The notes under the pieces: model-generated
What the model was told of the DNA's origin: nothing
Databases searched by the model: none
Seen by the model: the letters and a program-made list of their open reading frames with translations, nothing else
Part shown: piece by piece, positions 27,542 to 29,718 of the stretch
How the letters are laid out: each line of letters begins with the position of its first letter
Numbering within the stretch: the stretch's first letter is position 1
Source of the DNA: a virus
DNA: 30,325 nt
Strand: one strand, 5' to 3'
IMG/VR virus record: IMGVR_UViG_3300047325_000116
Coordinates: 1 to 30,325 of that record
Position numbers and translations under genes: made by a program

Positions 27542-28579
27542 TTACCCCTGGTAGGTACCTACCAGGGCCTCTCTGCTCCTCGCCGAGTCCCGGTCCGCCG
27601 GCCACGATCGCGGATCGAGCCAGTAACCCTCGCTGAAGAACCGCTTCGGGCCCCACGCGTAGCGCAGACTCCCGGCCTGCGCGCGGTATGCCAGGAAGCT
27701 CACGCAGGCCCTCTCGCCCACCGCGCCGGCCGCAACCCCGGTCCGCTGCATCTCGCTCAACAGCGCCCCCGCAATCACCGGCAGCAGCCGCATCTCGAGC
27801 AGGCCGCACCGCCGCATCACCAGCTCGGCCGCCTCGTTGCAGTCCGCGCACCGCGCAAACTCCTGGTCCGGCGCAGCGTCCGGCGTCCCTGCATCCGGCC
27901 AGCTTCCGCCGGCGATCTGCTGCTGCACCCAGGCCGCCCAGCCGATCGCCGCGCGACCCTCCCGCGCCCTCGTCCGGTTCACGAGCTCCCAGATGCCGCG
28001 CTGCTTGCCATCCGGATCCGGCGGTTCGAGCTCGTCCTGCGCGTCCCCCCGCAGGGGGGTAGGGGGTTGTATGGGTTCTAATGATGGTTCCTTATGGTTC
28101 TTCAATATAGGGAACAGCGTTTTGTCACCTGAGTCTGGCGTTTTTGTCACCTGACTCCCCTGTGGATTGTCACCTGACTCCGCCTTAGCAGGCTCTTTCT
28201 CAGGTGACATTTTGTCACCTGACTTTTGCAGCTTCTCAGCCTCACGCTCCTGCAGCAGCTTCGCGATATCGACATGCAGCTGGCTCCTTCGCATTCGCGC
28301 GTTCTCCACCACTCCCAGCTTCGCAATATCGATGAAATAGACGCTGCCCTTGCCATTGAGCACGCGCCGGCACACCTTCACCCAGCCCGTACGCTCCAGC
28401 TCCTGGACAAGCCGCATGGCCGTCCGCTCGTCGCAGCACACCTTCGCCGCAATCGTCGCGATCGACGGACACGCAAAGCCGAAGTCGTCCGCGTTATCGG
28501 CGATCGCCACCAGCGCCGGGCGCAGCGATCTCTTATTAGGCCCGCAGCTCATCGCCGCGCCCATCAGTATGGCACTCAT
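27542..28579 (-). CDS. Phage replication initiator with winged-helix domain
   Basis: The product is about 345 aa from ATG 28579 (MSAILMGAAMSCGPNKRS); upstream TTG 28606 is possible. The N-terminal ~90 residues are a HTH_36-type winged helix: LRPALVAIADNADDFGFACP, SIATIAAKVCCDERTAMRLV and a LERTGWVKV wing. A charged linker (about 115-190) is encoded by the iteron region. The C-terminal part is helical with a Cys-x2-Cys (RCADC) and ends SREALVGTYQG. Lambda O-type initiators have the same layout: DNA-binding N-terminus, origin in the middle of the gene, and a helicase-contact C-terminus. No helicase loader is recognised nearby. A perfect palindrome overlaps its 3' end and a terminator follows. 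Confidence 0.7.
   Translation of the reverse strand: MSAILMGAAMSCGPNKRSLRPALVAIADNADDFGFACPSIATIAAKVCCDERTAMRLVQELERTGWVKVCRRVLNGKGSVYFIDIAKLGVVENARMRRSQLHVDIAKLLQEREAEKLQKSGDKMSPEKEPAKAESGDNPQGSQVTKTPDSGDKTLFPILKNHKEPSLEPIQPPTPLRGDAQDELEPPDPDGKQRGIWELVNRTRAREGRAAIGWAAWVQQQIAGGSWPDAGTPDAAPDQEFARCADCNEAAELVMRRCGLLEMRLLPVIAGALLSEMQRTGVAAGAVGERACVSFLAYRAQAGSLRYAWGPKRFFSEGYWLDPRSWPADRDSARSREALVGTYQG
27546..27567. promoter_or_regulatory. Perfect 22-bp palindrome at 3' end of initiator gene
   Basis: The half site is CCCTGGTAGGT, followed immediately by its exact complement, centred between 27556 and 27557. It encodes the last residues of the initiator (LVGTYQ). No spacer loop and no T-run argue against a terminator. 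A dimeric DNA-binding protein site is inferred. Confidence 0.55.
28045..28224. other. Candidate replication origin: iterons plus AT-rich tract within initiator gene
   Basis: Four direct copies of TTGTCACCTGA(C/G)T start at 28122, 28144, 28167 and 28212, spaced 22, 23 and 45 bases. An inverted copy at 28200-28208 forms a 9-bp perfect inverted repeat with the last copy around ATTTT. The adjacent 28067-28121 is about 62% A+T by count and has three ATGG(G)TTC repeats (28071, 28084, 28094). CCCCCC-GCA-GGGGGG at 28045-28059 forms a GC hairpin. Order and orientation match the lambda origin inside gene O. One copy (28144) is read in a different frame, so DNA rather than protein is conserved. Confidence 0.65.
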
Positions 28580-28622
28580 CGTCCTGGACCCATTCCTTCC
28601 CACCAACCAGCCATCACACCCA

Positions 28623-29033: not shown

Positions 29034-29206
29034 GCGCCCTCCTTGCGTTCGCTGCTCACCGCCCCGAAGTCGAGCGCGGCCTGACCCTTCGGCGCGGCGA
29101 TCGCGAACTTCGCCGGCTTCCCGCAGCCCTCGCACTCCGGACGCCCCGGACCACGCGAGCAGTTCTTCCGCCCGCACCCACACGTCCACCATGTCGGCTT
29201 GCTCAT
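29030..29206 (-). CDS. Small Cys-rich protein with zinc-ribbon pattern
   Basis: The product is 58 aa, ATG 29206 (MSKPTWWTCGCGRKNC), overlapping the upstream gene by ATGA; the longer frame to 29224 is not preferred. Five Cys are visible: Cys9, Cys11, Cys16 and the ECEGCGKP pair at about 25-28. Metal binding is likely. The rest is short and Lys/Ala-rich. Its stop overlaps the receiver gene as GTGA. Function is unknown. Confidence 0.6.
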   Translation of the reverse strand: MSKPTWWTCGCGRKNCSRGPGRPECEGCGKPAKFAIAAPKGQAALDFGAVSSERKEGA

Positions 29207-29718
29207 GCGGGCATCTCGTTCCACTCACGCCCATCGAGCAGGCGACCTGCCGCCTTCTTGCCAACGCGATAAAACAGCGCATCCGATGCATTCCACAAAG
29301 TCGGGTCATTGCTCGGGTTGCCTGCAACATCGATGCGAGTGAACAATGCGCCCTTACGCGAGTAGTCCGCCTGCTGTGCGCCGGGGGCCAAATCGCCCCA
29401 CTGCTTGAAGAAGAACGGCACGCCAGCGGCGACGCACTGGTCGCGCAAGCTGCGAGCCCAACGAGGATGCATCGGTCGCGCGCCAGGCCCACTCTCGCCG
29501 CCGACGATCACCCAGTCAAGACACCCGTGCTCGGGTCCATCGCTCACGAGCCCATCTTCCGTGAAATAGAAGTCATTTTCATCGAGACAACCCTCGCCGC
29601 CGAAGCGATGCGCGACCTTCTCCGCGTAGCAGTTGAGGCAGCCTTCACTCACGCGGCTGCACCCACGAATCGGGTTCCAGGTCGCGTCCGTCCACTCAAT
29701 GTTGCTCTTATCGCCCAT
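29203..29718 (-). CDS. Phage Gp37/Gp68-family protein (DUF5131), internally shortened
   Basis: The product is 171 aa. The N-terminus (NIEWTDATWNPIRGC) and CX6CX2C (Cys20, Cys27, Cys30) followed by YAE are characteristic of the Gp37/Gp68 family, whose members are usually about 230-300 aa. The C-terminal signature follows directly: LDWVIVGGESGPGARPMHP, then PFFFKQWG and RLLDGREWNEMP. The central part with the LFHE and ILTKR motifs typical of the family, roughly 100-130 residues, is absent, replaced by a short segment (DENDFYFTEDGLVSDGPEHG). This looks like an in-frame internal deletion. The function of the family is not established. It overlaps the genes on both sides. Confidence 0.78.
   Translation of the reverse strand: MGDKSNIEWTDATWNPIRGCSRVSEGCLNCYAEKVAHRFGGEGCLDENDFYFTEDGLVSDGPEHGCLDWVIVGGESGPGARPMHPRWARSLRDQCVAAGVPFFFKQWGDLAPGAQQADYSRKGALFTRIDVAGNPSNDPTLWNASDALFYRVGKKAAGRLLDGREWNEMPA

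Follow-up and report, generated by a model that had tools for sequence, protein, structure and literature searches.

A putative lambda-type replication origin embedded in the initiator gene of an IMG/VR virus

Does a cluster of short repeats in the middle of a viral replication initiator gene mark an origin at which the encoded protein acts, or do the repeats serve the peptide that they encode or the control of the gene? The question is raised by the window analyzed here, the whole 30,325-base stretch of an IMG/VR virus record (a linear contig, possibly incomplete), in which an ORF profile search detected terminase, portal and capsid genes. The original prediction had read the repeats as a lambda-like iteron origin embedded in the initiator gene and as a candidate new iteron-initiator pair. 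The best explanation, to which we assign a probability of about 0.87, is a lambda-type origin lying within its own initiator gene, where the iterons would be bound, the adjoining A-rich tract would melt and a helicase would be recruited, with a C-run/G-run (C/G) element as a further part. The features concerned are the following:

27542..28579, minus strand: O-like winged-helix replication initiator gene (ORF; phrog_391, HTH_36; AlphaFold2 model)
28212..28222, minus strand: iteron 1, gene sense TCAGGTGACAA, encodes SGDK
28200..28210, plus strand: inverted iteron, gene sense TGTCACCTGA, encodes MSPE
28167..28177, minus strand: iteron 2, encodes SGDN
28144..28154, minus strand: iteron 3, in the other reading frame, encodes SQVTK
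28122..28132, minus strand: iteron 4, encodes SGDK
28067..28117, minus strand: putative unwinding tract, A-rich, containing GAACC(C)AT three times in gene sense
28045..28066, minus strand: C-run/G-run element, in gene sense CCCCC-TA-CCCCCC-TGC-GGGGGG, bordering the A-rich tract on the side away from the iterons

The initiator gene and its iterons

Counted from its ATG, the initiator has 345 amino acids; an alternative TTG start is possible at 28606. The protein matched phrog_391 ("replication initiation O-like", 2.6e-16) and Pfam HTH_36 (6.9e-8), and gave no match to Pfam Phage_rep_O (PF04492) at E <= 1. In an AlphaFold2 model built with ten aligned sequences, residues 1-85 form a confident winged helix and residues 239-316 a confident C-terminal helical domain, and the linker between them (residues ~121-212), in which the repeats are encoded, was mostly modeled at low confidence. 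Profile matches and model thus bear out the predicted winged-helix initiator and, because the low-confidence linker coincides with the repeats, the putative origin sits within the linker-coding part of the gene. A Foldseek search against the PDB returned only generic winged-helix matches, mostly of the MarR family and none at E <= 0.001. Among the scanned ORFs of this linear, possibly incomplete record no helicase or helicase loader gene was recognized. An ORF at 29203-29718 strongly matched phrog_2045 (8.7e-58), a family whose function is unknown.

Five copies of TCAGGTGACA, four direct and one inverted, lie inside the linker-coding DNA. An exact pattern search for TTGTCACCTGA placed the direct copies on the plus strand at 28122, 28144, 28167 and 28212, with start-to-start distances of 22, 23 and 45, as had been predicted. 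The inverted copy (28200-28210) is an 11-mer with one mismatch whose 10-mer core is perfect, and together with iteron 1 it forms a 23-bp inverted pair; in gene sense the offsets of TCAGGTGACA are +414, -428, +459, +482 and +504. The iteron pattern reversed, that is, read backwards, had zero matches within the record. The iterons are read in three ways, as SGD in three copies, as QVT in one and as MSPE in the inverted one, and translation agreed with the prediction that the copy at 28144 encodes SQVTK instead of SGDK. When synonymous codons were shuffled in 4000 trials, with both the protein and its codon set kept, the number of exact 10-mers averaged 0.14 and reached a maximum of 2, compared to the five observed. 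Thus, the iterons are DNA constrained beyond the encoded peptide and are not a product of chance, and the claim that nucleotide conservation outweighs protein constraint at this site holds, given these shuffles and the mixed reading frames.

In gene sense, the A-rich tract comes after the iterons. All three of the predicted ATGG(G)TTC repeats (the complement of the gene-sense copies) are present, at 28071-28078, 28084-28090 and 28094-28100, whereas the predicted AT-richness proved modest, the best 45-mer containing 29/45 AT versus a gene mean of 35%. As the initiator is encoded on the minus strand, the order of features (initiator 5' end, iterons, A-rich tract, 3' end) agrees with that in lambda gene O, as had been claimed. 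Gene O, with ori-lambda, likewise holds four iterons and an A-rich tract within the initiator gene and in the same orientation. However, each iteron of lambda is an inverted repeat of 18 bp to which O binds as a dimer (PMC7466680, PMC5043065), whereas those of the window are non-palindromic 10-11-mers arranged as one inverted pair plus single copies, and "lambda-like" is therefore true of the layout but not of the iteron form.

Relatives and modularity of the origin

Scanning for two TTGTCACCTGA copies close together retrieved the prophage-type initiator gene of Bradyrhizobium erythrophlei GAS478 (L018/L075). It encodes a distant HTH_36 winged-helix protein, lacks the C/G element and carries TCAGGTGACA seven times (six exact copies and one near, two of them inverted), at the same place in the gene and in mixed frames. 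The iteron is thus kept while the encoded peptide varies, the check that the original prediction had proposed. With this Bradyrhizobium protein as query, IMG/VR gave zero matches. The same scan found the TTGTCACCTGA core at 21-bp spacing ahead of a Rep_3 initiator gene in Falsigemmobacter (L026:1480-1640); this iteron plasmid shares the core with the window and differs in its Rep_3 initiator and in the placement of the repeats ahead of the likely rep start and not mid-gene. Of the proposed "new iteron-initiator pair", what stands is that the initiator has its own in-gene iteron; exclusivity does not, since the iteron also occurs elsewhere, as in this plasmid. Doubled TTGTCACCTGA matches in ORFs of collagen-like or simple-repeat type (L006, L012, L022, L024, L030 and others) were rejected as coding repeats.

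Searching IMG/VR with the window's initiator protein returned one locus as a close relative, which shares the C-terminal domain. In L005 the C-terminal domain is common with the window (41%), the N-terminal domain is different and the iterons are CTGTCGCTC. Furthermore, five phages with related terminases (identity 54-61% in the nearest nine loci) carry a homologous initiator at the corresponding place. Their arrays exceed codon shuffles in L113, L117 and L116 but not in L112 and L119, and GAACCATC of the A-rich tract recurs in L113. Across these terminase-linked relatives the layout is kept and the iterons differ, as would be expected if the winged helix and the iterons change together, and the lambda-like reading therefore holds; judged from the sequences, the modular pattern seen in L005 and the relatives is what lambda O would lead one to expect. 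Other Bradyrhizobium O-like genes contain in-gene arrays of very different sequence, often an inverted pair and then direct copies spaced ~22 bp apart, and part of this gene set shows no array above shuffles. One phage initiator (L187:1975-3096) combines an N-terminal HTH_36 winged helix (below cut-off), in-gene TGAGGGGCA iterons and a C/G element with a C-terminal DnaA domain I (DnaA_N 2.6e-7), which is possibly a borrowed helicase-recruiting part.

Could the repeats be something other than an origin? Were they only a repeated SGDK-type linker peptide kept by protein selection, this would account for the one frame, SGD(K/N), that three of the five copies share. Yet the remaining two are inverted or in another frame, synonymous shuffles yield two copies at most, identical DNA stands in mixed frames in the distant Bradyrhizobium gene, and the low modeling confidence of the linker is consistent with disorder. 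Already disfavored, this explanation is now extremely improbable; conservation through the peptide alone, which the original prediction had named as the case against itself, failed under synonymous-codon shuffling. Operator sites for autoregulation or for another regulator can also be a mixture of inverted and direct sites, and binding of a protein to its own gene would be expected to influence that gene's expression as well. However, the repeats lie mid-gene, ~350-450 bp past the start, where an A-rich tract and hairpin adjoin them as they do in the P22 and lambda origins, and the protein belongs to a replication initiation family, so that operators in place of an origin are very unlikely.

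For the lambda-type origin, a mechanism may be drawn on the model of lambda (PMC5043065, PMC7466680). An O-some would form when the initiator's winged helix binds the TCAGGTGACA iterons (one inverted pair and three direct copies spaced by about two helical turns); the A-rich tract beside them would melt, and the C-terminal domain of the initiator would recruit a helicase or helicase loader. Beyond the tract, the C/G element may act as DNA or RNA, in the position that the palindrome occupies in lambda. Sequence comparison supports the earlier reading of a lambda-like in-gene origin, which is of a kind already known, with binding by the initiator putative.

The C-run/G-run element and its distribution

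The original prediction made no mention of the C/G hairpin at 28045-28066. It immediately follows the A-rich tract and has the form found in P22 and HK97: C5-6, an AT spacer, C5-6 and, no more than 16 nt on, a G-run. The A-rich tract terminates in two C-runs with a TA or AA spacer and then a G-run in the window and in L005, L112, L113, L116 and L119, and among those loci the element is translated in three frames (PPTPL, TPLPP and PPYPP). The P22 gene 18 origin (BK000583) resembles the window in having in-gene iterons, then an A-rich tract, then ACCCCCTTACCCCCTAAAGGGGG; its iteron sequence is unrelated, and the next gene after gene 18 encodes a DnaB-like helicase, whereas none was seen in the window. 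With a TTA spacer, the element is present in P22 gene 18 and HK97 gene 54, and variants, some with a weak or absent G-run, are found in Proteus V3, Aaphi23, BUCT708, a Bordetella phage, GZ7, Rac YdaU and SPN3UB; these named phages were found via element-bearing query proteins and hence give no estimate of frequency. In contrast, lambda lacks the element and has an unrelated imperfect palindrome to the right of its A-rich tract. The annotated P22 rep_origin ends exactly at the G-run of ACCCCCTTACCCCCTAAAGGGGG, and the hairpin has therefore probably been noticed there already. In titles, abstracts and passages of the literature, no description of the element as a general feature was found, and the matches listed for the C-run string were mostly mitochondrial-genome papers and one miRNA, with no phage title among them.

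IMG/VR was scanned at the DNA level only, once for ACCCCCCTACCCCCN{2,16}GGGG and once with the TTA spacer of P22, and each scan returned at least 120 stretches. To be scored, the element had to lie in-sense in an ORF encoding 200 aa or more and no earlier than codon 90. Among the matches listed, 62/80 loci from the first scan were in-sense inside a long ORF compared to 4/70 for the spacer-permuted control, and 60/80 from the second, for which the control gave 16 stretches and 1/16. About three quarters of the 160 loci listed were thus in-sense in long ORFs, mostly of replication initiators and in all three frames. Removal of near-duplicates left 47 and 43 genes, respectively, still in all three phases. 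In these 90 element-bearing genes (drawn from L124-L203 and L357-L436), the 54 nt before the element are A-rich (42% A, 17% T), the tract shows a 6-nt periodicity (lag-6 autocorrelation 0.389 versus 0.281 elsewhere in the genes), and in 63/90 a repeat array upstream of the element exceeded all 20 codon shuffles. Among 55 element-bearing proteins (including those of the window, L113 and L005), 27 match a single O-like family alone and others match primosomal or DnaD-like families; their Pfam domains include HTH_36 (13), DUF1376 (9) and Phage_rep_O (7). When the ten most doubtful ORFs were scanned singly, seven matched replication-initiation or replication families, and L145, L185 and L193 had zero family matches. 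A 2,692-base entry named as a Staphylococcus phage (OR850084.1) codes for a protein that shares 62% identity with an O protein of enterobacterial type and is possibly mislabeled.

Thirty prophage loci chosen by phrog_678 alone were tested for a loose C/G pattern. This was present in 6/30 O-like genes, of which three (3/30) were counted as true elements by inspection, and codon shuffles of the same genes produced it at 0.01 per gene. The element is missing from 27/30 of these prophage genes, from nearly all Bradyrhizobium ones and from lambda; with so many O-like genes lacking it, it is not essential to the class. The exact pattern occurred zero times in 398 Pseudomonadota genomes, a result that gives no estimate of the element's frequency there.

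Selection on the element and its possible roles

CCC runs encode proline in every frame, which makes a proline-rich hinge under protein-level selection a real rival, and Pro-rich peptides (TPLPP, PPTP, PPYPP) are indeed encoded in every frame at the border of linker and C-terminal domain. We located the hinge by proline density alone in an initiator set made up of terminase-linked genes, lambda and matches of element-bearing queries; hinge prolines used CCC or CCT in 39/51 cases, compared to 70/185 in the rest of the gene (Fisher p ~1e-6). This preference tells against a hinge, as do the loss of enrichment on spacer permutation and the G-run that often comes after the C-runs. The codon bias is not proof, because the gene set is mixed and a similar, weaker bias (odds ratio 2.2) is seen in the Bradyrhizobium set, and part of it may be general. 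Proline codon use thus supports, but does not prove, selection at the nucleic-acid level, for which the spacer-permuted controls likewise argue, and a hinge is quite unlikely to be the explanation. It is unlikely, too, that the element is an intrinsic terminator of leftward (antisense) transcription into the origin. In P22 it is the region's sole terminator-like site, on the minus strand, a score it reaches because the A-rich tract supplies a T-rich tail; however, shuffles predict 0.6 such sites by chance, the stem and T-tract are often separated by the G-run and a spacer, and a promoter-like site was not found in that P22 region. Finally, the element could mark the border between exchangeable modules, serving as a linker for recombination. 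HK97-type O proteins are 97% identical to that of L134 from about residue 198, near the element, and on one side the winged helix and iterons vary among relatives, but swaps between elements in different frames would cause frameshifts unless compensated, and the hairpin and its A-rich neighbor would be left unexplained; we consider this as doubtful as the hinge.

The element is most likely a structured right-hand boundary of the origin, which is the reading we favor. The folding energy of single elements is unexceptional compared to dinucleotide shuffles, lambda's palindrome being the exception, and Rfam gave zero matches in P22 or HK97. The G-rich strand might conceivably adopt an intramolecular G*G-C triplex. 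A bolder proposal, on which we place long odds, is that C5-W(2-6)-C5-(hairpin)-G5 is a widespread functional part of O-type origins, a CSB-2-like G-tract plus T-rich tract where leftward transcription would stall and an R-loop or hybrid quadruplex would prime or open the origin. Teleost mitochondrial CSB-2, ACCCCCCTACCCCC, is a poly-C split by TA or TTA, the same string as the C-run element (PMC3739747), and human CSB 2 has a strand with a G-tract and then a T-tract at the replication-priming region (PMC5027508). The CSB-2 sequences listed, in contrast to the C/G element, are without a subsequent G-run, and no homology is implied; short simple sequences such as these can converge.

The iteron-initiator pair is ordinary in kind yet useful: as the DNA site lies inside the gene of its own reader, many such genes could tie winged-helix residues to DNA sites. 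The C/G element is the more interesting lead and could surprise a specialist. A pattern defined by DNA alone retrieves initiator genes that belong to several domain families, and does so in every reading frame; the element is also present in the textbook origins of P22 and HK97, where its role is testable.
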